Assembly: GCA_017469025.1 (NCBI GenBank)
Contig: JAFUHD010000118.1
Span: 1-50,502, forward strand
DNA: 50,502 nucleotides
Reading direction: 5' to 3'
Source of the DNA: Clostridia bacterium
GTDB taxonomy: Bacteria > Bacillota > Clostridia > Christensenellales > Aristaeellaceae
Program-made: the position numbers and the translations under genes
Notes under the pieces: model-generated
The model's input: the letters and a program-made list of their open reading frames with translations, nothing else
Databases searched by the model: none
Told to the model about the DNA's origin: nothing
Shown here: piece by piece, positions 4,254 through 32,932 of the stretch
Position numbering within the stretch: position 1 is the first letter of the stretch
How the letters are laid out: each line of letters starts with the position of its first letter

Positions 4254-4343
4254 CCTCCTCTATGACATAGTTTTGCTTTCGGCATCGTATCAGTAGCAGA
4301 TGCCATTGTTTGGCAGACCAGTACACAGTGATGGGCTATCTCT
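4254..4343 (-). repeat. Diverged copy of the SD-linked repeat
   Basis: On the minus strand this reads GATAGCCCATCAC...CTGCCAAACAATGGCA...ATGCCGAAAGCA...TGTCATAGAGGAGG. It is the most diverged full-length copy. The central inverted repeat TGTCA/TGACA of the other copies has become TGCCA/TGGCA, so both arms changed together. The 3' end forms the ribosome site of the zinc-ribbon gene. Confidence 0.8.
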
Positions 4344-4380
4344 TCGGCATGCTGGACTCTATCTGAACTGGCTGACAAGC

Positions 4381-4422
4381 GGGTGCAGTGCGCAGGCTGC
4401 TCAGCGCCTGAATACTGCACCC
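4381..4422. other. Strong hairpin in the 4248-4491 spacer
   Basis: GGGTGCAGT pairs with ACTGCACCC (9 bp), and inside it CAGGC pairs with GCCTG. No T-run follows on either strand, so it is not a typical terminator. It lies downstream of the flavoprotein gene and upstream of the zinc-ribbon gene. It may stabilise or process a shared transcript. Confidence 0.5.
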
Positions 4423-4491
4423 TGATATTTGCCTGGCTGGTACAATGCACCAGGTCCTTTTGACAGTCAGCAGCAGTCTGCCGGCTTAAAT

Positions 4492-5346
4492 CTATTTCTT
4501 ATCCAGATAGGCAACTGCGGAAAGGGCTGCGATATTCCCCTCACCTGCGGCCTTGATATACTGGAAGGGCTGACCGGTTACATCGCCACAGGCGAAACAG
4601 CCGGGAATATTGGTTGACATTGTACGGTCCACCTTGATGAAGCTGCCGTCCAGCTCAAGTCCTGGAACGAGCTGGCCCGGTGAGATGCTTTCGCGCAGGA
4701 CAAAGACACCGTCAACCGGATAGGCATCTGTCTTTGTCAGGACGCGGCGTTTTCCGTCCTGTTCATCTATGCCTGTAACAGGTTCGCTGATGATGCGTAC
4801 ACTGTCCGGAAGATCGGGCGTATCGCGGTACATGGGGAAATAGAGTACTTCGCTGCAGATTTCAGACAGAAAACGTGCTTCTGCTTCTTCAGTGCGGCTG
4901 TACCCGACGACCGCGGCGGTTTTTCCGCGATACAGCGGTGCGTCACAGGTTGCACAGTAGCTGACACCGCGCCCGAGCAGCGTTTCCTCACCGGGCAAAG
5001 GTTTGCCTGCTACCACACCTGAGCCCAGAATGACCGTGGATGCCTCATAGATCTCTTTTCCGCCCTGAAGTGCAAAATAGTCGCCCATTGCATAAATACT
5101 AGCGATTCTGTCTTCTGTTATCGCAATGTCCATGCTGTCAAGATGCGCTTTAAGGGCGTCCGCCAGAGCCTGGCCGGAGACGCCGGGGAAACCTGGATAA
5201 TTATATATTGCGTGTGCCTTCTGCAGCTTTGAACTGAGAGACGGACTGCCGATCAGAAGAACAGTTTTGTTCCGGATCTTGGATGTGATTGCAGCGGATA
5301 CACCGCCGGGACCTGTGCCGATGATAGCAATATCAAAACGCGCCAT
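4492..5346 (-). CDS. Thioredoxin-reductase-like flavoprotein
   Basis: 284 aa. The N-terminal FAD-binding motif is IIGTGPGGVSAA. A redox-active CATC pair (C131, C134) sits in the position of the thioredoxin reductase CATCDG motif, and the C-terminal FAD motif GCFACGDVTG is intact. The central nucleotide-binding segment reads AAVVGYSRTEEAEA, lacking the usual GxGxxA/G, and the HRRxxxR arginine cluster is absent (YFPMYRD instead). Loss of both NADPH motifs is known from ferredoxin-dependent flavin thioredoxin reductases of clostridia, so the electron donor may not be NADPH. An AGGAGG ribosome site precedes the ATG. No thioredoxin gene is adjacent. Confidence 0.8.
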   Translation of the reverse strand: MARFDIAIIGTGPGGVSAAITSKIRNKTVLLIGSPSLSSKLQKAHAIYNYPGFPGVSGQALADALKAHLDSMDIAITEDRIASIYAMGDYFALQGGKEIYEASTVILGSGVVAGKPLPGEETLLGRGVSYCATCDAPLYRGKTAAVVGYSRTEEAEARFLSEICSEVLYFPMYRDTPDLPDSVRIISEPVTGIDEQDGKRRVLTKTDAYPVDGVFVLRESISPGQLVPGLELDGSFIKVDRTMSTNIPGCFACGDVTGQPFQYIKAAGEGNIAALSAVAYLDKK

Positions 5347-5531
5347 GTGATTCCTCCTGTTTCTGTTTCATAAGAAACGCATTGTTTTACAAATTGTCAA
5401 TCCCCTCATTCTATTTGACATTTTAATGGATTCCGTCCTGCCGGTCAAGTAATGCGGTGACAATCTGCTGGTGAGAGCAGCAATGAGAACAGGCGCTTAT
5501 TTGCGCGAAATAAAGAAGTGCAGATGCATTC

Positions 5532-5620
5532 CATTAATGACATAGTCGTGCTTTCGGCACCGTATCAATCGCAGTTGTCATGATTTGACAAACCAGCATG
5601 AAATGCTGGGCCATCTCCTA
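5532..5620 (-). repeat. Copy of the SD-linked repeat, 3' ribosome site lost
   Basis: A nearly intact copy with hairpins CAGCAT-TTC-ATGCTG, TTGTCA-AATCA-TGACAA and GTGC-CGAAA-GCAC. The 5' end has GGAGATGGCCC, but the 3' end reads TGTCATTAATGGAATG, so the AAGGAGA is missing. It lies about 190 bp upstream of the flavoprotein gene, within its possible leader. Compared with the first-window array, the first hairpin has C-G replaced by T-A. Confidence 0.9.
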
Positions 5621-5674
5621 TGAAGGTGACGATTAAGGTTTTGACTGTGCAGCGGGTACCGCTGTCCGCTTTTT

Positions 5675-5706
5675 GAAAACAGGCACATCGTGCCGCGCCA
5701 TCTCCT
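5675..5706 (-). repeat. Fragment of the SD-linked repeat (left hairpin only)
   Basis: On the minus strand it reads AGGAGATGGCGCGGCACGATGTGCCTG, matching the left 30 bp of the element. The hairpin GGCAC-GAT-GTGCC shows A-T replaced by G-C relative to the other copies. The rest of the element is not recognisable. The remainder of the 5347-5872 spacer holds only this fragment, the full copy at 5532 and the promoter of the TIR gene. Confidence 0.55.
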
Positions 5707-5802
5707 GGGTAAATATCAGGACGGAATACAGTTTCATTTTTTTGTTGTTATTGCATTGAACGGTGAATCGGCTGCAGGGAATGCCATAATGCACAGAAAG
5801 AC

Positions 5803-5831
5803 TTGATTCAATGGGACATTCTTTTTATAAT
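5803..5831 (+). promoter_or_regulatory. Promoter with overlapping inverted repeat, TIR-SEL1 gene
   Basis: TTGATT at 5803-5808, a 17-bp spacer, then a perfect TATAAT at 5826-5831. The inverted repeat GGACATT (5814-5820) / AATGTCC (5829-5835) overlaps the -10 box and could be an operator. No regulator for it is identifiable here. Confidence 0.7.
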
Positions 5832-5872
5832 GTCCGAAAAAACATGTACACTGAACATAAATGGGGTAACCA

Positions 5873-7318
5873 ATGGACTTTGTCTATGATGCATTTATCA
5901 GTTACAGCCACAGGGACCTGAAATGGGGAAGGTGGCTGCAGCACAAGCTGGAGACGTATCCGCTCCCGCAGGAAATCCGGCGGGCACGCGGTGAAAAGGG
6001 AAAGCATCTGCATGTTTTTCGTGACCAGACGGATCTGGCGGGCGTTGAGCTGCAGGAATCGCTTCAGAGGGCGATGGAGTCTGCACGGTGTCTCATTGTC
6101 ATATGCTCTCCGGACAGTGCCAGATCCAAGTGGGTAGGAGCTGAAATTCGTTATTTCAAGAAACTTGGAAGGGAAACAGAGATCATTCCGTTTGTGGTAG
6201 CCGGTGAACCGGAAAGCGACCGATCAGAACTTGAATGCTATCATGAGAAACTGAGAAACCTGCCGGACAAGCATCTGCTGGGTGCGAATGTACAGGAGCT
6301 TGGCAGACAGAAGGCCTTCCTGCGTCTGACAGCCATACTGCTGGATGTCCGTTTTGACCGGCTGGTCAACCGCGCCAGGCAGAGAAGACAGAGGACGCTG
6401 CTGACTGCAGGTGGACTGTCAGCAGCCGTCATAGCTGTTGTAGGCGGACTTTTATGGCATAACTGGCAGATTTCAAGGCAGAATGAGGTGTTGTCATACA
6501 ATCTTTATGGTGCAGCAATTATTGGAACAATCCAGGCGGACCAGCTGGACGGGGAGGATGTTGAGAATCTCAGAATCTCTGCTGAGGCAGGAAACACGCA
6601 GGCTATGATTTATCTGGCTGACTGCTATCGTCATGGCTGGGGAATAGAGCAGGATCTGACAGCAGCATTTGAGTGGTTCCTGCGTGCTGCTGAGAATGGT
6701 GATGCGACTGCCATGGCAGCCGTGGGCAACTGTTATGCGGCAGGGGAAGGCGTTGAGGCAGATGAGGCTCAAATGGCTGAATGGTATCTGAAGTCTGCTG
6801 ATGCAGGAAATCCGGAGGGAATGCTGGATATCGGGATCTGCTATGAAAATGGAACTGGTGTTGAGCAGAATGAAGCACTTGCACTTGAATACTATCTGAA
6901 ATCTGCTGAACAAGGCAGCCTGCTGAGCATGCAGAAAGCGGCAGGATGCTATCTGTTCGGAGTTGGAACTGAAAAAGACCCGTCGCAGGCATTTGCCTGG
7001 ATGCAGAAACTTGCGCAGACAGGCGACCATGATGGCATGTACAATCTTGGAATGATGTATCAGTATGGCTTTGGAACACAGGAGAGTCCGGAGGATGCCT
7101 ATCTCTGGTACAGACGCGCGGCAGAAAACGGAGATCCTCAGGCAATGTATATGACGGGATGGTGTCTTGAACATCAGTACGGGGTTAAAAGTGCCGCGCT
7201 TGACTGGTATACCCGTGCGGCAGAACTCGGCAGTGAGGAAGCCAGGGAACGCCTGAGCGCAGAATCTGACGGCACTGCAGAACAGAACACAGTACCAGAC
7301 GGACAGGGGACAGACTGA
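5873..7318 (+). CDS. TIR domain - membrane segment - SEL1 repeat protein
   Basis: 481 aa. Residues 1-160 are a TIR domain: YDAFISYSHRD start, box-2-like FRDQTDL, and WVGAEI with E91 at the position of the catalytic glutamate of NAD-cleaving TIRs. Residues about 176-196 form one membrane segment (LSAAVIAVVGGLLW). From about 235 to 460 there are six or seven SEL1 repeats of about 36 residues (pattern A..G...AM..LG.CY..G.GV..D...A..WY..AA). The C-terminus is acidic and polar. The likely layout is a cytosolic TIR with SEL1 repeats on the other face of the membrane, or a membrane-anchored scaffold. Whether it hydrolyses NAD is unknown. It has its own promoter and is followed at 89 bp by the export cluster. 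The ribosome site (TGGGGT) is weak. Confidence 0.82.
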   Translation: MDFVYDAFISYSHRDLKWGRWLQHKLETYPLPQEIRRARGEKGKHLHVFRDQTDLAGVELQESLQRAMESARCLIVICSPDSARSKWVGAEIRYFKKLGRETEIIPFVVAGEPESDRSELECYHEKLRNLPDKHLLGANVQELGRQKAFLRLTAILLDVRFDRLVNRARQRRQRTLLTAGGLSAAVIAVVGGLLWHNWQISRQNEVLSYNLYGAAIIGTIQADQLDGEDVENLRISAEAGNTQAMIYLADCYRHGWGIEQDLTAAFEWFLRAAENGDATAMAAVGNCYAAGEGVEADEAQMAEWYLKSADAGNPEGMLDIGICYENGTGVEQNEALALEYYLKSAEQGSLLSMQKAAGCYLFGVGTEKDPSQAFAWMQKLAQTGDHDGMYNLGMMYQYGFGTQESPEDAYLWYRRAAENGDPQAMYMTGWCLEHQYGVKSAALDWYTRAAELGSEEARERLSAESDGTAEQNTVPDGQGTD

Positions 7319-7406
7319 CCCGCGGCAGGTTCTGCTGTTCATTTTTGACGGAATGAATTATAATAGCGTAACTTATCAATTGAGGAACAGTCAGAAAGGA
7401 ACTTTC

Positions 7407-8294
7407 ATGGCAGGGAAAAGAAGAGGCGGCAAAGGCAAATTTGCGCTCCTGATCATTCTCGTGCTGCTGGCAGCAGCAGGGGTATTTATCTACCGGAGTC
7501 AGAACCGTCAGACAGTTGATTATAAGGAAGAGACCGCTGTTGTCGGCAATGTGGATGTGACGTACAGTTTTACCGGTGAAATTACAGCACCGAACTCTGA
7601 AACGATTCATGCCGAAGCGGCGGGTACGATCCGTGATGTATATGTGGAATCCAACCAGTCCGTAAGCAAGGGTGAACGGATGATCCGGATGGAGGACGGC
7701 ACAACATATAAAGCCGATATTGCCGGAGAGATCATAGCGCTGCCTGTTCATAAGGGAGACTATGTTGAAAGTGACCAGGTACTGGCGACGGTTACAGATC
7801 TTGAACGGCTTGAAGTTGAAATTTCCATAGATGAGTATGATGTGGAAGCTGTTTCGATCGGCATGCCGGTCAGCGTCAGCATAACAGCACTCGACAGGGT
7901 TAGCGAAGGGAGCATAACCGGTCTTAACAAGCAGGCGGATACCAGTGGACAAATTGCCTATTACACCGCTACTGTTCAGCTGGAAACCATTCCGGGAATT
8001 CTGCCTGGCATGCAGGTAGAGGCAGTGCTGGTCAAGCAGTCAGCCAAAAATGTGGTAAAGATTCATGCTCAGGCATTGCAGTTTACTGATGCAAATGAGG
8101 CATATGTACTGGTTTCGGATGGACACGGTGGAGAGACGATGCGTCAGGTGGATACAGGTCTGACAGACGGCATCATGGTTGAAATAAAATCTGGTCTCTC
8201 CGCTGGAGATACAGTCTATTATGTAGGCCGTGATACCAGTTTTGAGGATCTGATGCGTGCCTTTGGCGGAAACCGCATGAACAGGGGTCGGTGA
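7407..8294 (+). CDS. Membrane-fusion adaptor (HlyD/MacA-like)
   Basis: 295 aa. The ATG at 7407 is chosen because AAAGGA lies 7-8 nt upstream; an earlier in-frame ATG at 7353 lacks one and overlaps a TATAAT (7359-7364) that may be the promoter. A basic N-terminus (GKRRGGKGK) precedes one membrane anchor (residues 12-29). Then come a biotinyl-lipoyl-like half (TIRDVYVESNQSVSKGE...IALPVHKGDYVESDQ) and a beta-barrel part. It would link the ABC pump encoded next to the cell exterior. It is the first gene of the export cluster. Confidence 0.85.
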   Translation: MAGKRRGGKGKFALLIILVLLAAAGVFIYRSQNRQTVDYKEETAVVGNVDVTYSFTGEITAPNSETIHAEAAGTIRDVYVESNQSVSKGERMIRMEDGTTYKADIAGEIIALPVHKGDYVESDQVLATVTDLERLEVEISIDEYDVEAVSIGMPVSVSITALDRVSEGSITGLNKQADTSGQIAYYTATVQLETIPGILPGMQVEAVLVKQSAKNVVKIHAQALQFTDANEAYVLVSDGHGGETMRQVDTGLTDGIMVEIKSGLSAGDTVYYVGRDTSFEDLMRAFGGNRMNRGR

Positions 8295-8295
8295 G

Positions 8296-8991
8296 ATGAG
8301 CATGGCAACGTATTTTTCAATGCGTGATATTGTCAAGACCTATCATGTCGGTGAGGAAGACCAGGTCGTGCTCAAACACGTCAATCTTGACATTCAGGAA
8401 GGAGAATTTCTGTCGATTCTGGGACCATCCGGTTCCGGAAAATCGACCATGATGAATATCATAGGATGTCTGGATACACCGACCAGCGGAGAGTATATTC
8501 TAAAGGACCGCAGTATCGGACAGCTGGATCAGCATGAACTGGCCCAGATCAGATGTCACGAGATTGGATTCATTTTTCAGCAGTTTCAGCTTCTGCCGAG
8601 ACTGGATGCCATGGAGAATGTGGAACTGCCGCTGATCTATGCGGGCATCAGCCATTCGGAACGGCAGAAGCTTGCACGGAAAATGCTGATCCGTGTCGGT
8701 CTTGGTGACCGAATGCATCATTATCCGAATCAGCTGTCCGGTGGCCAGCAGCAGCGTGTTGCCATTGCGCGTGCACTGGCGACAAATCCGACGCTGCTTC
8801 TTGCGGATGAACCGACTGGCGCGCTGGATCAGGCGACGGGCAAACAGGTAATGGAGCTGTTCCATGAACTCAATGATGAAGGCAGAACTGTAATCATGAT
8901 CACGCATGACCTCTCCATTGCCAGTCATGCAAAGCGTATCGTGAACATTCTGGATGGCGTTCTAAGCGAGGGGGTAAGTGAGTATGATTAA
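8296..8991 (+). CDS. ABC exporter ATPase (MacB/LolD-like)
   Basis: 231 aa ATPase with Walker [11 protein letters not shown]-loop IFQQFQLL, signature [15 protein letters not shown], Walker [13 protein letters not shown] and ITHD. These are hallmarks of the MacB/LolD/FtsE class. It starts one base after the adaptor stop and overlaps the permease gene, so translation of the three genes is coupled. Confidence 0.9.
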
Positions 8992-10198
8992 AGCCCGCCT
9001 CGGGATGTTTCATGAGAATGTCCGGATGTCCGTCACCAATATTCTCAGCAACAAGATGCGGACATTCCTCACAATTCTGGGCATCATCATCGGTGTTGCG
9101 GCAGTTATTGCCATGATCACGACGGTCAGTGGAGTGACAGGCGAAATTACCAGCCAGTTTGCGGCCATGGGAACCGGCAAATTCAGTGTCAGTGCAAATG
9201 GAACAGAACTGCGACCGGGACTGACTTCGGCAGACCTCGAGACGCTTCGTCAGATGGATAATGTGACCGGGATTTCTGTTTCCATGCAGAGCGACGTTGT
9301 GGCACGCCATGGCGGAAACTGGTCTGATGAAGTTACGATGGAAGGCCGCAATACCGTATATTTCAAGCACAATGAAAATATGATTGCCAGAGGCCGCGGT
9401 ATCAGTGTGCTTGATGAGGCACAGTATGCACGCGTCTGTCTGATTTCGGAGGGACTTCAGGAACAGCTGTTTTATGGCCATGATCCGCTGGGGGAAACAC
9501 TCTCACTGGACGGGCATACATTCACGATTATTGGCATTCTCTCTACGGAGAATGACAATGATGTCATGACGCAGGCGATGGGAAACAATGACAATGAAAA
9601 GTGCATTGTGCCTTATACAACGGCTATGCGGATGAGCGGGACTGCTTATATCAAATCCATTGAGATTTATGTGGCAGACACGGAAAAGCAGAGTGATACC
9701 ATAGAACTCACGAAGGAAACGCTGAAGCGCATCTTCAATGGACGGGATGACGATACGTTTACGGTCATCAATATGTCGGTTCTGATGGACTCCCTCAATA
9801 CGATTACCGGGATGATGACAACCATGCTGGCAGGCATAGCCGGTATTTCACTGCTGGTCGGCGGTATCGGCATCATGAATATGATGCTGGTTTCTGTTAC
9901 CGAACGTACAATGGAAATTGGTCTGCGGAAAGCACTTGGTGCTGAACCAAACATGATACAGATGCAGTTCCTTATTGAGGCGTTTATTCTGTCTGTTCTG
10001 GGCGGAACGATCGGTGCTGTGCTTGGTGTCAGTATTTCAATCATGCTCTGCAATGCAATGGATATTACATTTGTGCTTTCATGGAATGCCATTGTCCTGG
10101 GTGTTGGTTTTTCAGCCCTGGTCGGACTGGTGTTTGGATGGGCACCGGCCAGAAAGGCATCCAAACTGAACCCGATAGATGCCCTCAGGGCAGCATAA
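8984..10198 (+). CDS. ABC exporter permease (MacB/FtsX family)
   Basis: 404 aa. One N-terminal membrane segment (TFLTILGIIIGVAAVIAMIT) is followed by a large extracellular domain (about 60-275) and three C-terminal spans (FtsX domain, with GIGIMNMMLVSVTERTMEIG and RKALGAEP). The ATG at 8984 is preferred over a GTG at 8978 because of its spacing to GAGGGGG. The substrate is unknown; MacB-type pumps move peptides, macrolides or lipoproteins. Confidence 0.9.
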   Translation: MIKARLGMFHENVRMSVTNILSNKMRTFLTILGIIIGVAAVIAMITTVSGVTGEITSQFAAMGTGKFSVSANGTELRPGLTSADLETLRQMDNVTGISVSMQSDVVARHGGNWSDEVTMEGRNTVYFKHNENMIARGRGISVLDEAQYARVCLISEGLQEQLFYGHDPLGETLSLDGHTFTIIGILSTENDNDVMTQAMGNNDNEKCIVPYTTAMRMSGTAYIKSIEIYVADTEKQSDTIELTKETLKRIFNGRDDDTFTVINMSVLMDSLNTITGMMTTMLAGIAGISLLVGGIGIMNMMLVSVTERTMEIGLRKALGAEPNMIQMQFLIEAFILSVLGGTIGAVLGVSISIMLCNAMDITFVLSWNAIVLGVGFSALVGLVFGWAPARKASKLNPIDALRAA

Positions 10199-10226
10199 CC
10201 ATAAGAAGGAAACTGTCCGGCCATTC

Positions 10227-10299
10227 ACGCTGGTGTGTCAAAAAAATGACATTTGAGATTGATATGGTGCCGAAAGCACAAATATGTCATAATGGAGGC
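10227..10299 (+). repeat. Diverged copy of the SD-linked repeat
   Basis: TGTCA-AAAAAA-TGACA, GTGC-CGAAA-GCAC and TGTCATAATGGAGG are kept; the left CAGCA hairpin has decayed. The loop of the central hairpin is one base longer than elsewhere, which breaks the short reading frame seen in other copies while keeping the stem. Its 3' end supplies the GGAGG of the second adaptor gene. Confidence 0.8.
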
Positions 10300-10304
10300 T
10301 GACA

Positions 10305-11375
10305 ATGAATCGAAAAGGAATAGCCGTGCTGCTGATGGCGCTGAGCCTGGTATTGCTTTGCAGCAGTGCGTTTGGAGCGCCGGTTTATATGGATGGTACG
10401 GCCAAAGCACTCAGGACAGAGACTGTCCTGGCGCCGATTGGCGGAACCGTTAAGAGCATAGATGTACGGGAAGGCGATACAATTGAAAGCGGTATGACGC
10501 TTCTGACACTGCAGACGACAGTGGTCTATGCAGACCAGCCGGGACGGGTTGCTTTTTATGGGAATCCCGGGGAACGTACGGAAGCTGTCTCAGAACTGTA
10601 TGGTGCTGTAGCTGTCATTGATCCGGACAGCCGGTATATGATATCTACCAGCACGACCCAGGCATATGATGACAACGAGAACAAAATGGTCCGTTCGGGC
10701 ATCATTGTCTATCTGGTTCAGACAGAGGGAAACAAGAAAGAGAGCGGCATCGGACAGGTCTATGATGTCGATGGACGGAACTACAAAGTGCGCGTTCTTC
10801 AGGGAAATTTTGAACTTGGTGATTCCCTGAACATTTATCAGGCAGCTGATCATGACTATACGACGCGTATCGGCCGGGGCAGTCTTAGCCGGACAGATTC
10901 CGTCAAATATACCGGTGAGGGCAGTATTGTTTCGCTTCTGGCGGAAAATGGTGCACATGTTGAAGCGGGAGATCCGTTGTTTGAAACACTTGACGGTACA
11001 TTTAACGGCCTAATTTCCACCGGAAATACCGTTGGCGCAACTACAGATGGTGTCATTTCCAGAATTTCAGTTGAGCAGGGAGACCACATTGACAAGAATC
11101 AGGCAGTGGCTGAAATATGGCCGGAGGATGCCATGCGCGTCGTTGCCAGCATTCAGGAAATGGATCTGGCCGAGGTGAATGCCGGTGATGATGTTGAGAT
11201 AGAGTTTGATGCATTCCCGGATCAGTGGATCAAGGGCACCATTGAGCGGATTGCCTCCCGCGCGATCTCGGATGATGAAAACAGCAAAAATGCTGAGTAT
11301 GAGGTTGTTGTTAATTTTGAAACGAATCTGCCTATAAGATTCGGCATGCATGCCCAGGTAAAAACAGTCAGGTAA
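10305..11375 (+). CDS. Secreted HlyD-like adaptor, second in cluster
   Basis: 356 aa. A signal peptide (residues 1-24, ending AFG before APVYMDG) lacks a lipobox. A split lipoyl-like motif (LAPIGGTVKSIDVREGDTIE) is followed by an inserted domain (about 60-200), then a second lipoyl-like copy (TTDGVISRISVEQGDHIDKN) and a beta-barrel (IEFDAFPDQWIKGTIERI). It resembles the preceding adaptor in fold, not in detail. It follows the permease by about 105 bp, filled by a repeat copy that provides its ribosome site. It may be an extra adaptor or a modulator for the same pump. Confidence 0.75.
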   Translation: MNRKGIAVLLMALSLVLLCSSAFGAPVYMDGTAKALRTETVLAPIGGTVKSIDVREGDTIESGMTLLTLQTTVVYADQPGRVAFYGNPGERTEAVSELYGAVAVIDPDSRYMISTSTTQAYDDNENKMVRSGIIVYLVQTEGNKKESGIGQVYDVDGRNYKVRVLQGNFELGDSLNIYQAADHDYTTRIGRGSLSRTDSVKYTGEGSIVSLLAENGAHVEAGDPLFETLDGTFNGLISTGNTVGATTDGVISRISVEQGDHIDKNQAVAEIWPEDAMRVVASIQEMDLAEVNAGDDVEIEFDAFPDQWIKGTIERIASRAISDDENSKNAEYEVVVNFETNLPIRFGMHAQVKTVR

Positions 11376-11413
11376 ACGTTTCGGAACTTTCTCCGGAACG
11401 GTTTACAATGAAT

Positions 11414-11472
11414 GCGGGAGACAGTCAGCGCAACAGATATGGAACGTTGAAAGTCTCCCGCTTTGTATTTTT
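11414..11472 (+). terminator. Terminator of the export cluster
   Basis: GCGGGAGAC (11414-11422) pairs with GTCTCCCGC (11453-11461) and is followed by TTTGTATTTTT. The loop is long (30 nt), so efficiency is uncertain. Confidence 0.6.
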
Positions 11473-11622
11473 AACCTGTCTTCTGCAGATGCAACCTGAC
11501 ATTGTAAAACAATTCGATAAAAGATGACCGTCTTGGAAAACAACAGGAACGGCATGTTTTGCAGATTGTTTAATAAATGTGCTGTCAGTGTAAAAATGCA
11601 TGCAATTTAATGGATGATAAAA

Positions 11623-11651
11623 TTGACGAAAAATCCCGAAAGTGATAATGT
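11623..11651 (+). promoter_or_regulatory. Probable promoter of the GGDEF gene
   Basis: TTGACG, a 17-bp spacer and TAATGT with an upstream TG (extended -10). It lies 25 bp before the start codon. Confidence 0.45.
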
Positions 11652-11676
11652 TTAGGCATAATGAGGGAGGCTGATG

Positions 11677-13545: not shown

Positions 13546-13560
13546 CGGTTCGTCCTTTTA
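13526..13560. terminator. Bidirectional terminator between the GGDEF gene and argD
   Basis: GGACGAACCGTC and GACGGTTCGTCC form a perfect 12-bp stem. TTTTA follows on the plus strand, and TTCTTTGTTTTTTG follows on the minus strand. The stop codon of the GGDEF gene lies in the loop, so one hairpin ends both converging transcripts. Confidence 0.9.
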
Positions 13561-13610
13561 TACTGATATGTGAAAATAAGCTGATGAACCATGGCACGGT
13601 CTGCCAGGGT

Positions 13611-15634: not shown

Positions 15635-15643
15635 GATATCACC

Positions 15644-16861: not shown

Positions 16862-16867
16862 GTGTTG

Positions 16868-16961
16868 TCTCCTTTAATGACATAGTCGTGCTTTCGGCAC
16901 CGTATCAATCGCATTTGTCATTATTTGGTAAACCAGCACAAGGTGCTGGGCCATCTCCTTT
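16868..16961 (-). repeat. SD-linked repeat between argC and argJ
   Basis: Full copy with AAAGGAGA at both ends. Hairpins CAGCAC-CTT-GTGCTG and GTGC-CGAAA-GCAC are kept; the central TTGTCA arm has become TTACCA, breaking that stem. The terminal AAAGGAGA lies 7 nt before the argJ ATG. The element occupies most of the 159-bp gap, so it is transcribed within the operon. Confidence 0.93.
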
Positions 16962-17020
16962 AAGTCAGGGAATATCATTTCATGTCCTGTTTCAGGCTGC
17001 GGAAAAACAGCGTTCCTTTT

Positions 17021-20450: not shown

Positions 20451-20483
20451 GAAAAAACAGGTCCGGTTTTGCCGGACCTGTTG
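20451..20483 (-). terminator. Terminator of the citrate-synthase operon
   Basis: AACAGGTCCGG and CCGGACCTGTT pair perfectly (11 bp) around CAAAA and are followed on the minus strand by TTTTCC, just past the isocitrate dehydrogenase stop. Confidence 0.9.
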
Positions 20484-20485
20484 AA

Positions 20486-21616: not shown

Positions 21617-21715
21617 ATGTTTATCCTCCTAATAATGGCAACAGTTTGTTCTTTGGCAGCACTGAGGCTGCCCGGCCAGCCGATAGGGATTGCCGCCTTC
21701 TGTTGCCCGGATGCA

Positions 21716-22372: not shown

Positions 22373-22384
22373 ATTCCGTCCTCC

Positions 22385-23761: not shown

Positions 23762-23792
23762 AGGGATCACCTCTGAAAAAAATCTGGGCACA

Positions 23793-23821
23793 AGTATATA
23801 CGCACATTGATTGTTTGTCAA
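23793..23821 (-). promoter_or_regulatory. Promoter of the Re-citrate synthase operon
   Basis: TTGACA (23816-23821), a 17-bp spacer and TATACT (23793-23798) on the minus strand. It lies in the 134-bp gap between this operon and the divergent glycosylase gene. Confidence 0.85.
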
Positions 23822-23895
23822 ATCGAAATACAGAAATACAGAATGATAATGATGCCGATCGCCTTTCGGGCCTGGCATAATGGAAAGGACATCAG

Positions 23896-24732: not shown

Positions 24733-24822
24733 AAAGGCTGCGGATTTTTAGTTAAAAAGGCTTTCCTTGTTCACGAAGAATATGATATACTGTCATTTAT
24801 CACAGATGTAGGAGCGCAAAGA

Positions 24823-27800
24823 ATGGACGAAAAACGATATGAACCCGACAGAATACATAAAATACTGGATTGGCGGGTTATATTTGAAAAAGAGATATTA
24901 GAAGAAGGAGAAAAACTTTATAATTCCAGTGTAATTCGGGAAATCACAGCCTATTATGGAAATACATTTGAAATAAAAACCGGGAAAATAATATCCAATA
25001 TCAGAATCTACAGAACACCGGCACAGCTGACAAGCAGCTGGAAAGATGCCGGTTTTGAGTGCTCAGCCTGTAAAAGAGGTTATTATAACAGTAATACCGG
25101 TGCGTGCAGGCATGCTGCTGCTGCACTTATTTATTGGGAGAAAAAGAAAGGACCGTGGACGGTCTGGGAAGATGATTATGCTTACAGACTGAGAAAAGAG
25201 AGCGAAGCATTAGAAGCAGAACGTCTGCAAAGAGAGAAACAGCGCCGCCGGATAGGACTTAGCCCGGTGCCGTTGCTAGAAGCTTTCAAATCCCGTGTTC
25301 CAAAGGGAGCTGTTTACTTTGATATGGAGGGCATTCTTGCTCCATATGTAACAACTGCAGCAGCACAGTCATTTCTTCAGTCTGCCAAAGCAGATGCAAT
25401 AGCTTACCGCATGGATTATAAAGTGTATACAAGCCGTGAGGGAGAAAAGTGGATAAGGTTCGAGCAGGGGTTTGAAGGTAAGTTTGAATATGTCGTGGTT
25501 TGGGGAACTGTTGCAAACGGACAACTGAAACTCTATCACGCTTTAAAACAGAAAAAAGGCAGATATTCTGTTCACATTTCTTCTGAGGAACTTGAAGATG
25601 TTCCGCCGAAGAGTGTGTCAGATCCATTTGATGAATATGACCTTTATACGCTTGCAAATGTATGGGATATTGCTGACAAAGAGAGCGCAAAAAGCATAAC
25701 AGATGAAGGCGCGGAAAAATTCTTCAAGAGCATTCAGGCTATGCGCGAAGAAAATGCCCGCAGGGAAACCAGGAGCGCCGAACCAAAGGTCACAAAAAAG
25801 CCGGTTATAGAGATACTGCCCCGTATTGTTCTTGACTTTGGTTCTCCGGTACTGTCCTTTAAAATAGGTGTTACCGGCGGCAGAAAATATATCGTCAAGG
25901 ACTGTTACAGTCTGTTTAATGCTGTTACAAATGAAGAAGATTTTGTCCTTGGCAAAAAGGAAACACTGCATTTTGCGGAACAGGAATTTACACAAGAGGC
26001 AGCTGTTTTGTATGATTTCATACAGCGCAACAGGGCGGACTCCTTCAATGGTATTTATCAGGTAAACCTTGAGGGAAGCCGGCTTGATAATTTCTATGAC
26101 ATGTATTCCGGCGAGTGCGAGCTTCTTGATAAAACAAACAATATCAAGGATGAACTGGTCAAAGTCGGTCATATGAACATCCGTTTCAAGCTGACAGCTG
26201 ACCGGCTGGCGGATGCCAGAAATAATTTCATGGGTGTCACGGTATCCGGATTTGTTCCGGTCCTGATTTCTGGTAATTCTTATAAATATGTCATCGACAC
26301 AAAGGGACTTTCGCGTATTTCACAGGAAGAAAAACAGGTGCTCGAGCCTTTTATTGCAGTTGCCGATGCTGCATGCTATTTCCGTTTCCAGGTTGGCAAG
26401 GACCGTCTGCAGGAATTTTATTACCGGGTACTGCCGGGACTGCTCGAAAATCCGTTTGTGGAATTTGTCGACAACTGTGTTGATGAGGCATCCGGTTATC
26501 TGCCGCCCGAACCGGTATTCAATTTCCTGTTGGATCTGGATGATTATAATAATCTGCAGATACGAGGAATTGTCAGGTATGACCAGCTTGAATACAAGCT
26601 GCTTCCGAAGGAAAACGCGTCCTCCGGTTATCATGATGAGGAACAGGAGGAACGGGCCATTGCCTGTATCAAAAAGTGGGCACCTGAATTCCAAGAGGAA
26701 TCCGGCACCTTTGGGAAAAAACTGACTGACGATGAACTGTACGATTTTCTGACAATCGGTATGTCTGAACTTGAATACTATGGACGTGTCAAAGGAAGCA
26801 GCAATTTTCTGTCCAAACGCGTCATTTCAAGTCCAAATGTATCTGTCGGCATTTCAGTGGATGCAGGCGGTCTTCTGAACATTTCAGTGACATCGAAAGA
26901 GCTTTCCAATAGGGAACTGGTGGATGTCTATAACAGCTACATTCAGAAAAAACGCTATTATCGTCTGAAGAGCGGTGATTTTATTGATCTCACGCAGGAT
27001 GAAGAACTCGGGGAACTAAATGCATTCCTGAATCAGATGGATATGCTGCCCAAGGATGTCATTAACAAAAAGGTACAGGTACCGATGTACCGGGCGCTGT
27101 ATCTTGATAAAATGCTCGAGGAGCATGACAAGCTGGCTACAACCCGTGACCGGACATACCGTGCGATGATCCGAAACTTTAAGACAGTCCGTGATGCTGA
27201 ATTTGAAGTGCCGGAACCCATGGAAGAGACCATGCGGCCGTATCAGGTGTTTGGCTTTAAATGGCTCAAGACCATTCAGATGTCCGGATTCGGCGGAATT
27301 CTGGCGGATTAGATGGGTCTTGGCAAAACACTGCAGATGATAGCGCTCTTCAAAGCGGATAAAGAAGCTGCACAGCAAAGTGGTAAAAGGGGCAGGAAGA
27401 CAGAGCCTGAGCCAACCAAGCCGTCTCTTGTGATCTGTCCTGCTTCACTTATCTATAACTGGCAGGAGGAAATAGAAAAATTTGCACCTGATCTGAAGGT
27501 AACAGTATTGTCCGGGACTCAGGGAGTCCGGAAGAAAGCACTTGCGGATGCAGACGGCGTAGATGTCTATGTGACATCCTATGACCTGCTGAAACGCGAT
27601 ATTGCATTGTATGAGGGTGTATCCTTTGACAACTGTGTTCTTGATGAGGCACAGTATATCAAAAACGCGAAAGCTGCAGTTTCCAAATCTGTCAAGCTGA
27701 TTCAGTCGGACCACCGCTTTGCGCTGACTGGTACCCCGATTGAAAACCGGCTGTCTGAACTCTGGAGTATCTTTGATTTCCTGATGCCGGGTTTCCTGTA

Positions 27801-28650
27801 TTCACAGCTTAAGTTTGAAAAAGATTTTGAAATTCCGATTGCAAAATACAAGGATGAGGACATGACGGAGAAGCTCAAGAACATGACGTCCCCGTTTATC
27901 CTCCGCAGAAAGAAAATGGATGTGCTCAAAGATCTGCCTGCGAAGCTTGAAGAGGTCCGTTATGCGCGTCTTGAAGGCGAACAGCAGACCATTTACGATG
28001 CGCAGGTGGTGCGGATGAAGGAGATGCTCGCCGGCGGCGAACTGGCTGGTGAGGAGAAGATTAAGATCTTTGCCGAACTGATGCGTATCCGGCAGATCTG
28101 CTGCGATCCGTCCCTGCTCTTTGAAAATTACAAGGGTGAGAGTGCAAAGCGTGAGGCCTGTCTTGAACTGGTCAAGAGTGCCATTGAGGGCGGCCACCGA
28201 ATGCTGATTTTCTCCCAGTTTGTTTCCATGCTGAACCTCCTTGAGGAAGATTTTGCCAGGGAGGGCATTGAGACATACAAGATCATAGGCTCCACACCCA
28301 AAGAAAAGCGCATCTCCATGGTGCGTCAGTTCAATGACAACGATGTGCCCGTTTTCCTGATTTCCCTTAAAGCCGGCGGCACCGGTCTCAATCTGACAGG
28401 TGCAGACGTCGTTATTCATTATGATCCATGGTGGAACCTGGCAGCACAAAATCAGGCAACAGACCGTGCACACCGTATTGGGCAGACGCGTCAGGTGACA
28501 GTCTTCAAGCTGATCCTCAAGGGAACCATTGAGGAACGCATCATGGCGCTGCAGGATGCCAAAAAGGATCTGGCAGAGGCCATTCTTGAGGGCAGCAACG
28601 AATCTATTATGTCTCTTTCCGCGGAAGAACTTATGTCTCTTCTGGGATAA
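24823..28650 (+). pseudogene. SNF2-family helicase interrupted by an amber codon in Walker A
   Basis: Two abutting open frames in the same phase: 829 aa, then TAG at 27310-27312, then 445 aa. Together they make one SWI2/SNF2 protein of about 1275 aa. The first part has a SWIM-type zinc finger (C..C..., CRHAAAALIYWE; residues about 78-105), a long family-specific region and the Q-motif (RPYQVFGFKWL), ending GGILAD. The second begins MGLGKT, so TAG replaces the usual acidic residue of DEMGLGKT. The second part carries LDEAQYIKN, SLKAGGTGLNLTGAD and DRAHRIGQ, all intact. TAG is a normal stop elsewhere in the window (carA, uvrA paralogue). It could be a fresh nonsense mutation, a base-call error, or two polypeptides by re-initiation at the ATG just after TAG. 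AGGAG lies 9 nt before the first ATG. Confidence 0.88.
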
Positions 28651-28664
28651 CGTTTTTTCAAATC

Positions 28665-28690
28665 AAGTCCGGATATTTCCGGACTTTTTC
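28665..28690 (+). terminator. Terminator after the SNF2 gene
   Basis: AGTCCGGA and TCCGGACT pair around TATT and are followed by TTTTC. Confidence 0.88.
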
Positions 28691-28705
28691 TGTGACGTGA
28701 TGCAA

Positions 28706-28740
28706 CAGCCTGTGAAACAGTATTCTGTTTCACAGGGCTG
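28706..28740 (+). other. Long hairpin upstream of the UvrA paralogue
   Basis: CAGCCTGTGAAACAG pairs with CTGTTTCACAGGGCTG (15 bp, one bulge) around TATT. A second small palindrome, GGAATC-TGCG-GATTCC, follows directly. No T-run, so it is not a simple terminator. The pair may form the leader of the next gene. Confidence 0.5.
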
Positions 28741-28776
28741 CTTTGGAATCTGCGGATTCCGCGGGCAGTGCACAGC

Positions 28777-31332
28777 ATGATTATCGACGTGAAAAGTGAA
28801 GGCGCCGCAGGGGAACATGCGGCGGATACAGACATGGCAAAAACAGATAAAGCACCGGATGTGATCAGGGTATACGGTGCCCGGGTTCACAACCTCAAAA
28901 ACATAAATGTGGATATTCCGCTTCGGAAAATTGTCGGCATAGCCGGTGTATCCGGATCAGGGAAATCTTCTTTGGCGCTGGGCGTTCTCTACGCGGAGGG
29001 CTCCAGACGGTATCTTGAATCGCTGTCTACCTATCCGAGAAGACGCATGACGCAGGCAGCAAAGGCAGATGTGGATGAGGTGCTTTATGTTCCTGCAGCA
29101 CTCGCACTTCATCAGCGGCCGGGTGTCCCTGGCATCCGTTCAACATTTGGCACCGGGACGGAACTGCTTAACAGCCTGCGGCTGATGTTTTCCCGTCTTG
29201 CGGAACACCGCTGTCCGAATGGGCATTATGTGCCGTCCTCTCTTTCAGTAGCTGCTGGTCAGGATATTGTCTGCCCGACATGCGGCGTGCACTTTTACGG
29301 GCCAGGCGCCGAAGAGCTGGCGTTTAATTCCCAGGGAGCCTGCCGCTGCTGCGGTGGAACCGGTACAGTAAGAACGGTAGATGAGGCGACTTTGGTACCG
29401 GATGCATCGCTTACCATTGATGAGGGAGCGGTTGCACCCTGGAACAGTCTGATGTGGTCCCTGATGACGGATGTCTGCCGGGCTATGGGTGTGCGGACCG
29501 ATGTACCGTTCCGCGAACTGACAGACGAAGAAAAGCAGATTGTCTATGACGGCCCAATGGTGAAAAAGCATATCTTTTACCGGCCAAAGAACAAGGAAAG
29601 CGTCAGTGCCGGAGAGATGGATTTTACTTATTACAGTGCAAGGGCGACCGTCCTGAATGCGCTGAATAAAGTGAAAGACGAAACCGGCATGAAACGGGTT
29701 GAGAAGTTTCTCAAGGAAGAAATCTGCCCGGAGTGTGGTGGAACAAGGCTTTCAGATGCAGCGCGTGCACCGCATCTGTGCGGCATTTCACTGGATCAGG
29801 TGTGCCGGATGCCGCTGAAGTCAGTCATTGAATGGGTAAATGGCGTGCCTGAATCACTGCCGGAAGTCATGAGACCGATGGCTGCATCCATCTGTGAAGC
29901 GTTTCAGGATGTTGCAAAGCGACTTATGGAACTGGGACTCGGTTATCTGACACTTGACCGGGCGGCATCAACGCTTTCCACCGGAGAACGGCAGCGGATG
30001 CAGCTTGCCAGAGCGGTGCGAAACAGGACAACAGGTGTATTGTATGTGCTGGACGAACCGTCCATCGGCCTTCATCCGGCTAACATTGCAGGTCTGAATG
30101 GCGTGATGCATGACCTGATTGCAGATGGCAATTCCGTTATTCTTGTGGATCATGATACTCAGATTCTGAAAGAGGCGGACTGGCTGATTGAAATGGGACC
30201 GGAGGCCGGTGCAGATGGCGGAAACGTTCTGGCTGAAGGAACGATACAAAATATTGAGACCAATTCGGTATCAAAGATTGGTCCGTTTCTCCGGGGAACA
30301 GCTGCTGTCAGCCGTTTACGCACCAGGCAGGATGAATTGTTCAGCCTGGGAACCATTCACCTTGAAACGGACAGTATTCATACGGTCAAGCCGCTCACAG
30401 TTGATATTCCGAAAGGCAGACTGACTGTAATAACCGGTGTTTCCGGATCGGGGAAAACGACGCTGATTCTGGAAAGTCTGGTACCGGGACTTGAGGCGCT
30501 GACAGCAGGGAAAACACTCCCGGCGCATGTCCGGTCCATCGATGCACCCGGCATTGCACATGTAAATCTGATTGATGCTACTCCAATTGGAATCAATGTC
30601 CGCTCAACGGTTGCCACTTATGCAGGTGTTCATGATGAACTGCGCAAACTCTATGCCAGAACATCCGATGCAAAAGCACTGGGGTTCAAAGCGGGTGACT
30701 TCTCTTACAATACAGGCAGCCTTCGCTGTAAAACCTGTGATGGAACAGGGTCAATCAGTCTGGATGTACAATTTCTGCCGGATGTGGATATCCCCTGTCC
30801 TGCCTGCCGTGGTTCGCGCTATGACCGGACAGCAAACCAGGTCCGGTATGCTTCGAAGAATGGAGAAAAACGTTCTCTTCCGGAGCTTATGGATATGGAT
30901 GTTTCCTCTGCCCGCCGATTCTGCAGAGAAATCCGTTCTGTTGAACCGCATCTGGATGTTCTCGAAAAGCTTGGACTCGGCTATCTGACATTGGGTGAGG
31001 AGACGCCGAGTCTGTCCGGCGGAGAGGCACAGCGCCTCAAACTGGCAAGTGAAATTGGCCGACTTCAGACAGATTCTGTCTTTGTTTTTGATGAACCAAC
31101 GATCGGACTTCATCCACAGGATGTGCAGAGTCTGCTGGCTGTCTTTGACACGCTGATTGACAATGGCGCAACAGTCGTTGTCATTGAGCACGATCTTGAT
31201 CTGATACGTTCGGCAGATTATGTCATCGACATGGGGCCAGGAGGCGGCGAGGATGGCGGGTACATCGTCGGATGTGGTACTGTTGACGAAATCCGGCACA
31301 ATCCGGAGAGCATAACAGGCAGATATCTGTAG
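28777..31332 (+). CDS. UvrA paralogue lacking the UvrB-binding domain
   Basis: About 851 aa, shorter than the usual UvrA of about 940. Two ABC halves are visible: Walker A GVSGSGKSS (near residue 60) and GVSGSGKTT, signatures LSTGERQRMQLA and LSGGEAQRLKLA, and zinc-finger cysteines CRCCGGTG and CKTCDGTG...CPACRGSRY. After FSRLAEHRCPNGHY the sequence runs almost at once to the first finger region, so the segment that binds UvrB in classical UvrA is missing. This is typical of class II UvrA (UvrA2), linked in some bacteria to drug or damage tolerance. The start is uncertain: no clear ribosome site precedes the ATG at 28777, the GTG at 28768 or the ATG at 28834. Confidence 0.82.
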   Translation: MIIDVKSEGAAGEHAADTDMAKTDKAPDVIRVYGARVHNLKNINVDIPLRKIVGIAGVSGSGKSSLALGVLYAEGSRRYLESLSTYPRRRMTQAAKADVDEVLYVPAALALHQRPGVPGIRSTFGTGTELLNSLRLMFSRLAEHRCPNGHYVPSSLSVAAGQDIVCPTCGVHFYGPGAEELAFNSQGACRCCGGTGTVRTVDEATLVPDASLTIDEGAVAPWNSLMWSLMTDVCRAMGVRTDVPFRELTDEEKQIVYDGPMVKKHIFYRPKNKESVSAGEMDFTYYSARATVLNALNKVKDETGMKRVEKFLKEEICPECGGTRLSDAARAPHLCGISLDQVCRMPLKSVIEWVNGVPESLPEVMRPMAASICEAFQDVAKRLMELGLGYLTLDRAASTLSTGERQRMQLARAVRNRTTGVLYVLDEPSIGLHPANIAGLNGVMHDLIADGNSVILVDHDTQILKEADWLIEMGPEAGADGGNVLAEGTIQNIETNSVSKIGPFLRGTAAVSRLRTRQDELFSLGTIHLETDSIHTVKPLTVDIPKGRLTVITGVSGSGKTTLILESLVPGLEALTAGKTLPAHVRSIDAPGIAHVNLIDATPIGINVRSTVATYAGVHDELRKLYARTSDAKALGFKAGDFSYNTGSLRCKTCDGTGSISLDVQFLPDVDIPCPACRGSRYDRTANQVRYASKNGEKRSLPELMDMDVSSARRFCREIRSVEPHLDVLEKLGLGYLTLGEETPSLSGGEAQRLKLASEIGRLQTDSVFVFDEPTIGLHPQDVQSLLAVFDTLIDNGATVVVIEHDLDLIRSADYVIDMGPGGGEDGGYIVGCGTVDEIRHNPESITGRYL

Positions 31333-31486
31333 ATTTACGGAAAAAACAGTAATCTCTGTTTGAAGCCTGCACAGCTTCACAGCATGAGGGCAATGTACGG
31401 TGAGCTCTTAATACATGGTTTTGAGTTTCGTCTCAGAGCAGTACTCATGATGGGCGGGTCCACCAAAGGAAAGATGAGAAAAAACA

Positions 31487-31533
31487 AAAAACAGTCCATC
31501 TTCCTGAATCAGGTGAGATGGACTGTTTTTTAA
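31487..31533. terminator. Bidirectional terminator between the UvrA paralogue and the STAS methyltransferase
   Basis: AAAAACAGTCCATCT pairs with AGATGGACTGTTTTTT around a 14-nt loop. A/T tracts on both sides make it work for the two converging genes. Confidence 0.9.
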
Positions 31534-31560
31534 CACGGGCAGCGAAGCACTGCCAGCAAA

Positions 31561-32832
31561 TCAGTGAAAAATGGAATCAAAACCGGTCTGCTCCAGTATT
31601 TCCGTTACGACTTCATTTTGATTGTGAAGCGAAACACCGCCATTACATGCCTTATGCATGATCAACAGGACGCGCAGACCGGCGGAGGAGATGTATTCGA
31701 GGCGGCTGCAATCCACCTCTACGGCTTCCATCGGCTGCTCTGCTTTTGCCTTTTCAAAGAAAGACAGCAGGGTTGGTGCGGTGATTGTATCGAGCCGTCC
31801 GGTCAGCGCAAGGGACAGGATGCCATCCTGAATGGAAGCGTCGGTATGAAATCCCTTCGTTTCTGTGGAAGGAAGCTCCGTGACTTTTCCGCTGGGCGTG
31901 ATTTTCCAGAAAGCAGAATGTTTCATGCCCTCAAGTACTGCCGTGGCCTGCATAGCGCTGACCCTGTCCAGGGAATCAAGCTTTGGCATGTTTTCGCCGA
32001 TGTTGACACGTTCGGCTTTCAAACCGTGCTTTGCAAGAAAAGCCATGGCGTTTTTGGTGCTGCCTGCCATATCCGCAGGAGAGGTGATCAGCGCGTTTTT
32101 GCCGATTTCAACGTCGGACTTGTCCTTCGTCTGCTGTTTTGCATTCTTCATGATCTCCATGAAGCGATCCCCCACCAGGGCGCGCATGACAATGATATAC
32201 TGCAGGGAGCATTCCACATCAGCTGTGTACCAGCAGCCGCCCTTCTTTTCGAGGATACGGCGGATATTGTCGCAAAGTGCTCCGGCCTCAGAATCGGTAA
32301 AGTACATCAGCAGGCCTTCTGTGTTGATGCAGACAGGACCGTAAACGTCCTCCAGTGCCTTTTCCAGCGAGGCATAGTTGGTTGCGTCCACTTCCCGGAA
32401 GTGGGCAAATGCTCTTTTCTCCGGCGGAATCAGAGCACTGATTTTCTCAGATGCTTCCTGAATGACTACCGGAAGATCAAGGCCGTAATAGGGTAAGCCT
32501 TTCTTTGCAAATTCAATCGCGCGGGGTGTATAGCCGCAGGGCATGTCTACCAGTGTATAGCCGGATTTCTCGGCCAGATGCGCCATCGTGCGGTAGCGGG
32601 TTTCCAGCATGATCGTACCGCCCAGTATCTGCTCCGGTGAAGCCTTTGTGCTTGCACTGTCCTGCGTTGCCTCCATCGTAAGGCCCATGCTTTTTGCCAG
32701 TGCTGCTGCGTCCCTGTCGCCGTTTGCAGCCAGCTGAAACAGTGTCATCTTGGCTGTATTGAACACGGGATTTACTTTTTCGAGAAGCGTATAATCAACA
32801 GCGGTGTTGTCCATATTCCATGTGTTGTCCAA
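31561..32832 (-). CDS. SAM methyltransferase (LCM-like) fused to a STAS domain
   Basis: 423 aa from a TTG at 32832, 8 nt after the GGAG of a repeat element; the frame is open further upstream only because it runs through the repeat. Residues about 65-320 are a leucine-carboxyl-methyltransferase-like Rossmann domain (YTLVDMPCGYTPRAIEF, YYGLDLPVVI, TEGLLMYFT). Residues about 335-423 are a STAS domain with YISSAGLRVLL, where the serine is the usual phosphorylation site of anti-anti-sigma factors. The product could methylate a small acid or protein under partner-switch control. Two related methyltransferases lie 2-4 kb away. The transcript starts at a promoter near 32994, so the repeat lies in its leader. 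Confidence 0.8.
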   Translation of the reverse strand: MDNTWNMDNTAVDYTLLEKVNPVFNTAKMTLFQLAANGDRDAAALAKSMGLTMEATQDSASTKASPEQILGGTIMLETRYRTMAHLAEKSGYTLVDMPCGYTPRAIEFAKKGLPYYGLDLPVVIQEASEKISALIPPEKRAFAHFREVDATNYASLEKALEDVYGPVCINTEGLLMYFTDSEAGALCDNIRRILEKKGGCWYTADVECSLQYIIVMRALVGDRFMEIMKNAKQQTKDKSDVEIGKNALITSPADMAGSTKNAMAFLAKHGLKAERVNIGENMPKLDSLDRVSAMQATAVLEGMKHSAFWKITPSGKVTELPSTETKGFHTDASIQDGILSLALTGRLDTITAPTLLSFFEKAKAEQPMEAVEVDCSRLEYISSAGLRVLLIMHKACNGGVSLHNQNEVVTEILEQTGFDSIFH

Positions 32833-32837
32833 TGGTA

Positions 32838-32932
32838 TCTCTCCTTTAATGACATAGTCGTGCTTTCGGCACCGTATCAATTGCAGTTGTCATGATTTGA
32901 CAAACCAGCATGAAATGCTGGGCCATCTCCTT
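32838..32932 (-). repeat. SD-linked repeat in the leader of the STAS methyltransferase gene
   Basis: Full copy: AAGGAGATGGCCC at the left, hairpins CAGCAT-TTC-ATGCTG, TTGTCA-AATCA-TGACAA and GTGC-CGAAA-GCAC, and TGTCATTAAAGGAGAG at the right, which is the ribosome site of the gene. A 26-codon frame begins at the left ATG (MAQHFMLVCQ...) and ends (…KARLCH) in the TAA that overlaps the right AAAGGAG. Confidence 0.95.

Follow-up and report, generated by a model that had tools for sequence, protein, structure and literature searches.

The 50,502-nucleotide (nt) contig JAFUHD010000118.1 of an uncultured gut bacterium of the Clostridia (assembly GCA_017469025.1; the whole stretch is referred to here as the window) contains a family of short structured repeats, several of which stop at the Shine-Dalgarno (SD) sequence of the gene that follows. 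We asked whether these repeats are mobile elements that settle at SD motifs or copies of a dispersed RNA that regulates the genes downstream, the two possibilities raised by an initial annotation of the window. Our data favor the reading that the repeat is a small, non-autonomous mobile element for which the SD motif serves as a landing site and which regenerates that motif; we assign this reading a probability of about 0.66. The part of this reading that concerns a mobile, SD-targeting, and SD-restoring repeat is, taken by itself, very probable; it is well supported in the genome that holds the window (G000) and is repeated in related species.

Ends and target of the repeat

The repeat unit is 86 nt long and contains, in order, ATGGCC, a hairpin, GGTTTGTCAAA, ATGACA, GGTGCCGAAAGCAC, and TGTCATTAAAGGAG. 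Its first bases, ATGGCC, stand directly after a host GGAG with A-rich bases ahead of it, and its 3' end is TTAAAGGAG, the last base of the element being the G of AAAGGAG. Terminal inverted repeats are not present. Across 103 flanks, the 5' side is informative at AAA (0.75-1.12 bits) and more so at GGAG (1.35-1.73 bits). Across 113 ends, the 3' end TCATTAAAGGAG holds 1.56-2.0 bits, and each of the 14 positions beyond it holds at most 0.11 bit.

The initial annotation had proposed an element that inserts at, or duplicates, AAGGAGA. Insertion fits our data, as the unit lies directly 3' of a host (A)AAGGAG, but duplication does not. The 5' motif is variable (AAAGGAG, TAAGGAG, AGAGGAG, ACAGGAG, and others) and the 3' motif nearly constant, and among the 46 sites with a 5' heptamer other than AAAGGAG the same heptamer was found on the 3' side at one. 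We therefore rejected target-site duplication; the 5' motif belongs to the host and the 3' motif is the fixed end of the element. Placement relative to AAGGAG is not random either. A 5' GGAG occurs at 34 of 50 sites positioned as SD sequences and at 25 of 31 other sites. That GGAG is as common outside open reading frame (ORF) starts as at SD sequences indicates that the target is a sequence and not a function. At site L053, for instance, reconstruction of the sequence before insertion yields a terminator-like stem of 13 bp (AAAAAGGAGCTGC/GCAGCTCCTTTTT), which the element splits after GGAG.

In our favored reading, the element enters immediately 3' of a host (A)AAGGAG, which in many cases is the SD of a gene. 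The host motif stays 5' of the element, and the fixed AAAGGAG end takes over the position of the SD at a workable distance from the start codon. Specificity is confined to the 5' side of the joint, and the target sets the orientation. Because its last bases match the target motif, each unit offers a further landing site, from which head-to-tail arrays can build up by separate insertions. Transposition would be the mode of insertion; this is something we infer only, because no site was both filled and empty within one species.

The one-sided target also bears on a rival explanation, in which a double-stranded circle is integrated by a site-specific recombinase (IS110/IS1111 with a guide RNA, serine, or tyrosine) with GGAG as the shared core. 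A core on both sides and an array joint equal to a circle joint speak for it. Such recombinases usually read both half-sites, however, and the near absence of information 3' of the joint makes this route rather unlikely.

Placement ahead of genes and the terminal motif

A 90-nt query gave at least 84 BLAST matches (E up to 0.001) in the 4.25-Mb, 373-contig genome of the window with 40 of 329 candidates scored. A covariance model built from 30 copies gave at least 167 matches (E up to 0.01), a lower bound from the 150 of 2,365 candidates that were scored; we did not take model E-values as proof, because the best matches include the sequences used to build the model. About 150 of the 167 matches were listed, and the retrieved stretches among them resolve into 237 copies at 131 distinct sites, of which 59 hold one copy, 41 two, 28 three, and 3 four. 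Some overlapping loci, together with L001 and L002, were dropped as duplicates, and 20 sites at contig or locus edges were left out of the placement count.

We found a start codon 3-14 nt past the terminal motif at 73 of 111 readable sites, where ATG, GTG, or TTG had to be followed by at least 50 open codons. In a count that places the 3' end slightly differently, the spacer was 6-10 nt in 67 of 71 passing sites. Control positions at the same loci passed at 1,539 of 12,200 random positions (12.6%), 262 of 1,342 GGAG, 88 of 342 AGGAG, 24 of 93 AAGGAG, and 8 of 24 AAAGGAG motifs. The element is thus enriched upstream of start codons (Fisher p = 1e-8 against AAGGAG). Among the best-scoring loci of three related species, start codons follow 26 of 36 sites in G015, 5 of 8 in G004, and 13 of 18 in G002. 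Downstream genes were compared for part of all sites: 46 listed genes have N-termini unlike one another, and the four genes that follow single copies in the window belong to separate Pfam families (zinc-ribbon, HlyD-type, ArgJ, and STAS), which bears out the initial view that they are unrelated.

Head-to-tail arrays occupy 72 of the 131 sites. A leader module spread by local tandem duplication and homologous recombination, without transposition, would produce such arrays. Adjacent copies are, however, no closer than random pairs (84.5 and 85.4% identity), with 1 of 73 adjacent pairs identical, and over a hundred dispersed sites have exact ends, so that arrays appear to have grown mainly by separate insertions. 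Tandem duplication was rejected as their main origin, and as a full explanation of the repeat it is highly improbable.

Within arrays ahead of an ORF, the copies closest to the gene are better kept. Of these arrays, 20 have the gene-proximal copy nearer the consensus and 4 the upstream copy, with one tie (p = 8e-4), compared to 6 and 5 in other arrays; single copies have similar identity to the consensus before ORFs (93.5%) and elsewhere (93.8%). Of the 71 gene-proximal copies that precede ORFs, 68 retain the terminal GGAG, as do 27 of 37 last copies at other sites (Fisher p = 0.001 between the two groups) and 67 of 84 upstream copies. This retention of bases suggests that the SD of the element is one in use by host genes. 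The commonest identical sequence type shows no enrichment at the ends of arrays, so that selection, rather than age, may explain why gene-proximal copies are better preserved.

If the element is mobile, related genomes may hold the same genes without it. For 18 further genes of G000 searched in G002, G004, and G015, orthologues were found for 13, giving 25 in all once two partial non-orthologous rows (L374 and L377) had been left out. No element match lies within 250 nt upstream of 23 of these, the other two having matches of 33.8 and 10.8 bits, and in 19 of the 25 a GGAG lies no further than 22 nt from the start. Gene L250 in G000 reads AGAGGAG, two units, then GAACGTTTATGG; its G004 orthologue reads AAAGGAGGAACAGAAATGG, the host sequence running on across the insertion point. 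In G002, the zinc-ribbon gene carries ATAAAGGAGG without the element, and the argC-argJ gaps of G004, G015, and G003 lack a copy like that in the window, argJ having one SD or SD-like motif.

Fold, regulation, and route of mobility

Three parts make up the conserved fold: the P1 hairpin, a linker of constant sequence (TTTGTCA), and a long-range stem, ATGNNN/NNNCAT in three species, that encloses a GAAA-loop hairpin. After removal of one of 33 aligned sequences, 93.8% of 224 P1 cells were paired across 32 copies of G000, G015, and G004, compared to 20-45% in slid controls, and 38 cells were changed on both sides. None of 500 shuffles was as high for paired cells, double-change cells, or covariation score, while 7 were for pairs with a double change and 483 for the number of pair types. 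P1 and its compensatory change, noted when the window was annotated, are real; TGGC or GGGC forms the hairpin foot in most copies. A fourth helix seen in G002, CTGTTTGC/GCAAACAG, has 85 of 88 cells paired in 11 copies (12 of 21 listed copies were chosen by hand, and one with a deletion was left out of the P1 count).

The annotation had also described a stem P2 (TTGTCA/TGACAA) and offered AATGACA/TGTCATT as an alternative pairing, and it is the latter that covariation supports. This long-range stem (ATGACA/TGTCAT) is 82% paired in G000, G015, and G004 (slid controls, 27 and 39%), its three inner positions having double changes in 8, 11, and 7 cells. When four species are taken together (92 copies), pairing is seen in 425 of 552 cells, compared to a mean of 341 and a maximum of 370 in 2,000 shuffles; copies with unparsable arms were left out of this count, which used 43 of 52, 31 of 36, and 6 of 9, together with the 12 hand-chosen copies of G002. 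The outer part of the stem varies in G002 (left ACGAGC in 5 of 12 copies, right GCTCGT in 6 of 12). P2 exists in G000 but fails across three species, with 132 of 192 cells paired (69%), no clear covariation in any column, and a single column (p = 0.03) exceeding the shuffles, and we rejected it as a conserved helix. TTTGTCA and GGTGCCGAAAG are largely constant unpaired parts, the GGTG of GGTGCCGAAAG being mostly ACG in G002, and the 3' GAAA hairpin is present with pairing bases that, by eye, shift between subfamilies. The window has no Rfam match at gathering, and five loci gave only chance-level matches (E 1.6 or worse), so that a known Rfam family was rejected.

Covariation beyond chance, same-strand placement before starts, an SD apparently under selection, and the better-kept gene-proximal copies in arrays are also what a dispersed cis-regulatory RNA would show. 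Such an RNA, similar to a riboswitch or thermometer, would control the downstream genes through two exclusive folds that switch the SD. Our data do not bear this out. The downstream genes look unrelated, the element is also found at AAGGAG motifs outside SD sequences (including the terminator-like hairpin of L053), most orthologues have no upstream match, single copies before ORFs are no nearer the consensus, and P2, one arm of the proposed switch, is unconserved across species. We regard this alternative as quite improbable.

How would a mobile, SD-targeting element move? Single-strand transposition by HUH enzymes is marked by a one-sided target, no duplication, no inverted repeats, hairpins on one strand, and joints equal to a circle joint (PMC6006769, PMC7290912). 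The repeat shares these marks, the one-strand hairpins probably among them, which leads us to infer that an HUH-type transposase might act in trans on the folded strand, in the manner of IS200/IS605, PATE, and REP elements. This route is tentative, with odds slightly below even.

A second route is retro-mobility. Here the RNA, with AAAGGAG at its 3' end, would prime at a nicked CTCCTTT target, and a reverse transcriptase, group II intron-like or of another kind, would copy it into the SD. In favor of this route, the 3' end of the element matches its target, the element would belong to mRNA leaders, and its structure with a GAAA loop is conserved; the exact 5' joints, however, fit DNA cutting as well, and we consider it unlikely.

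Several observations weigh against the mobile, SD-targeting element. We found no mobilising enzyme for it in an inspection limited to Y1 transposase loci. Within the genus, matches to the Y1 transposase family (PF01797) are present in 4 of the 6 genomes that bear the element and in 12 of the 23 that are free of it, no inspected Y1 locus bears the ends of the element as its own, and, by eye, guide tetranucleotides of the IS200/IS605 type are not evident, as nothing at the feet of the hairpins clearly complements GGAG. The excess before ORFs is smaller against the closest control, AAAGGAG (Fisher p = 0.005), so that part of the enrichment is due to such motifs often being SD sequences, as sequence-directed insertion predicts; 38 of the 111 sites are not ahead of an ORF by our rule, which random positions pass at the rate given above. 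The two complete units of the window array are identical, which fits duplication as well as insertion. The long-range stem of G015 is weak beyond three or four pairs (fifth 15 of 31, sixth 3 of 31). Orthologues, about 67-82% identical, were compared between species and not strains. By eye, the argJ relatives of G004 and G015 may hold decayed older copies. L195 (G004:C38 38800-39800), an orthologue of the gene that follows the window copy near 10227, also seems by eye to hold a decayed G004-type unit in the same place; that insertion may be older than the species split, or the site may have been hit twice.

The Y1 loci themselves came from incomplete assemblies; 15 were scanned with element models and some were read as sequence. 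As a raw count, an element match (E up to 0.003) lies within about 1.5 kb of the Y1 match at 6 of the 15, clearly in L032, L034, L308, and L316 and weakly in L310 and L312. Where sequence was read, these are separate copies, one of them interrupted by IS200. At 1343-1607 of L034 (G000:C14 5164-6770), an IS200-type insertion interrupts an element copy after about its first 40 nt. The insertion has an end hairpin of its own and the beginning of a Y1 transposase, at which point the contig stops. The IS200-type gene of G015:C348 has one weak, decayed element copy, upstream only (19.3 bits), and its only close relatives are in G021 and G002 (58-65% identity). It was rejected as an autonomous partner, since the ends of these related genes are, by eye, of another kind.

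Among the closest known systems are palindrome-associated transposable elements (PATEs), which are ends-only derivatives of IS200/IS605. PATEs lack terminal inverted repeats and target-site duplications, insert 3' of a short fixed motif, and carry one-strand hairpins (PMC7290912, PMC6006769); our repeat likewise has no inverted repeats, no duplication, insertion 3' of a fixed motif, and specificity on the 5' side only (103 and 113 ends). It differs in that no parent insertion sequence with the same ends was found among the scanned Y1 loci and in that it targets the SD motif, ends in a copy of its target, and forms self-targeting arrays. REP/BIME sequences with TnpA-REP (RAYT) are also short, extragenic, palindromic, and numerous, with species-specific families and a proposed mobilisation in trans (PMC8266576, PMC6006769). 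Our repeat, in contrast, is 86 nt with a long-range stem, its insertion is tied to AAGGAG, its hairpin foot is not GTAG/GTGG, and the inspected Y1 loci yielded no associated tnpA. Bacterial miniature inverted-repeat elements (BOX, RUP, SPRITE, ERIC, and YPAL) are likewise short, dispersed, and non-coding, and some of them change the mRNAs into which they insert (PMC2229807, PMC3049150). Most have terminal inverted repeats and target-site duplications, both of which are absent from this element, whose placement is tied to the SD motif. Among IStrons and group I introns (PMC4227781, PMC3984707) there is likewise mobility with an insertion that the element itself renders harmless, but they splice out of RNA and this element rebuilds the SD. 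Our search, limited to the open-access literature, found no SD-targeting, SD-restoring repeat.

Many insertion elements damage what they hit. The repeat studied here appears to solve this problem at the level of translation by landing on a common regulatory motif and supplying a replacement, and an invaded gene can probably still be translated. We think it somewhat likely that the repeat represents a class of selfish elements that have made the SD their niche: it would be targeted by sequence to AAGGAG on the mRNA-sense strand, restore the motif through its own 3' end, spread over many genes without silencing them, turn native leaders into one structured leader, and stack into arrays that push the native SD upstream. 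If so, this would explain the tolerance of well over a hundred insertions, many directly before genes. It would also define a new class of transposition target and a naturally occurring insertion system, SD-directed and self-repairing, with an enzyme that can be looked for. The mRNA leaders of unrelated genes would be overwritten by one mobile module, with assemblies breaking at its arrays.

Distribution and copies in the window

The element was found in 6 of 29 genomes of the genus. It is numerous in G000, G004, G015, and G002, where the three relatives have their own subfamilies with similar ends and placement, and the genus search gave 7 matches in G016 and 5 in G023. G021 had one weak match with model R1 (E 9e-4) that model R2 did not repeat. 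In an order-wide sample, 1 of 297 genomes was positive, the genome of the window itself; strict filters and 14 candidates scored per genome would let weak subfamilies escape. A scan of viral contigs with one exact pattern gave 0 matches, and presence in viruses was rejected on that basis. Most of the 80 named argJ relatives that were kept belong to uncultured Clostridia from gut and rumen.

In size, the four element-rich genomes rank near the top of the genus (3.7-5.0 Mb compared to mostly 2.2-3.4 Mb), though some of these assemblies are 5-8% contaminated. A two-unit array with a shared downstream flank occurs in assemblies of different species, at L062/L065 (G015:C43) and L019 (G000:C162), which points to cross-contamination or recent transfer. 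At least 25 contigs of G000 start within 300 nt of a copy, by eye among the matches listed, so the element probably also breaks the assembly.

All copies listed in the initial annotation were found in the window, and they resemble one another beyond chance, with four 90-nt copies 73-98% alike and inverted copies 83-91%. The coordinates of the single copies below are model coordinates and include the host GAG. An array opens the window on the plus strand: the contig starts inside it, so that the first unit is represented by its 3' part only (1-57), followed by two complete 86-nt units at 58-143 and 144-229, the latter identical to the former. The array and the copy near 5532 have no ORF of at least 50 codons directly downstream. 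By eye, the ATG at 236 opens a 19-codon ORF only, overlapping a terminator-like hairpin (230-290, plus strand).

Four single copies had been reported, near 4254, 10227, 16868, and 32838, to end at the SD of the next gene, and in each the start codon indeed lies 7-8 nt past the terminal GGAG. A diverged unit at 4254-4342 (minus strand) gives GAGGAGG, with GGAG 7 nt ahead of the ATG of the zinc-ribbon gene (3447-4247). Another diverged unit, at 10209-10298 (plus strand), gives TGGAGG, also with GGAG 7 nt ahead of ATG, here of the HlyD-type adaptor gene (10305-11375). In the argC-argJ gap, the unit at 16869-16957 (minus strand) has host CTTAAAGGAG on its 5' side, with the target GGAG at 16955-16958 on the same strand, and its own end, TTAAAGGAG, places GGAG 7 nt ahead of the argJ ATG. 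The unit at 32841-32929 (minus strand) is of the commonest sequence type, read in 19 identical copies, and has GGAG 8 nt ahead of the TTG of the STAS-domain gene (31561-32880).

The unit at 5529-5617 (minus strand) follows a host ATAGGAG, and its terminal motif has decayed to AATGGAA. The sequence at 5675-5706, first described as a fragment, is present and is probably the 5' part of a decayed full-length unit at 5618-5704 (minus strand), an upstream neighbor read by eye whose score (10.3 bits, E 0.84) is not significant alone.

Two further features of the window were observed. The leader of the gene at 2054-3016 (3060-3360, minus strand) contains a terminator-like hairpin and a GTGGCACCACGG stretch, has no Rfam match at gathering, and is presumably T-box-like. 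A protein encoded at 5873-7318 (plus strand) has an N-terminal TIR domain, which also matches ThsB_TIR, followed by Sel1 repeats, and possibly has a role in defense or signaling.

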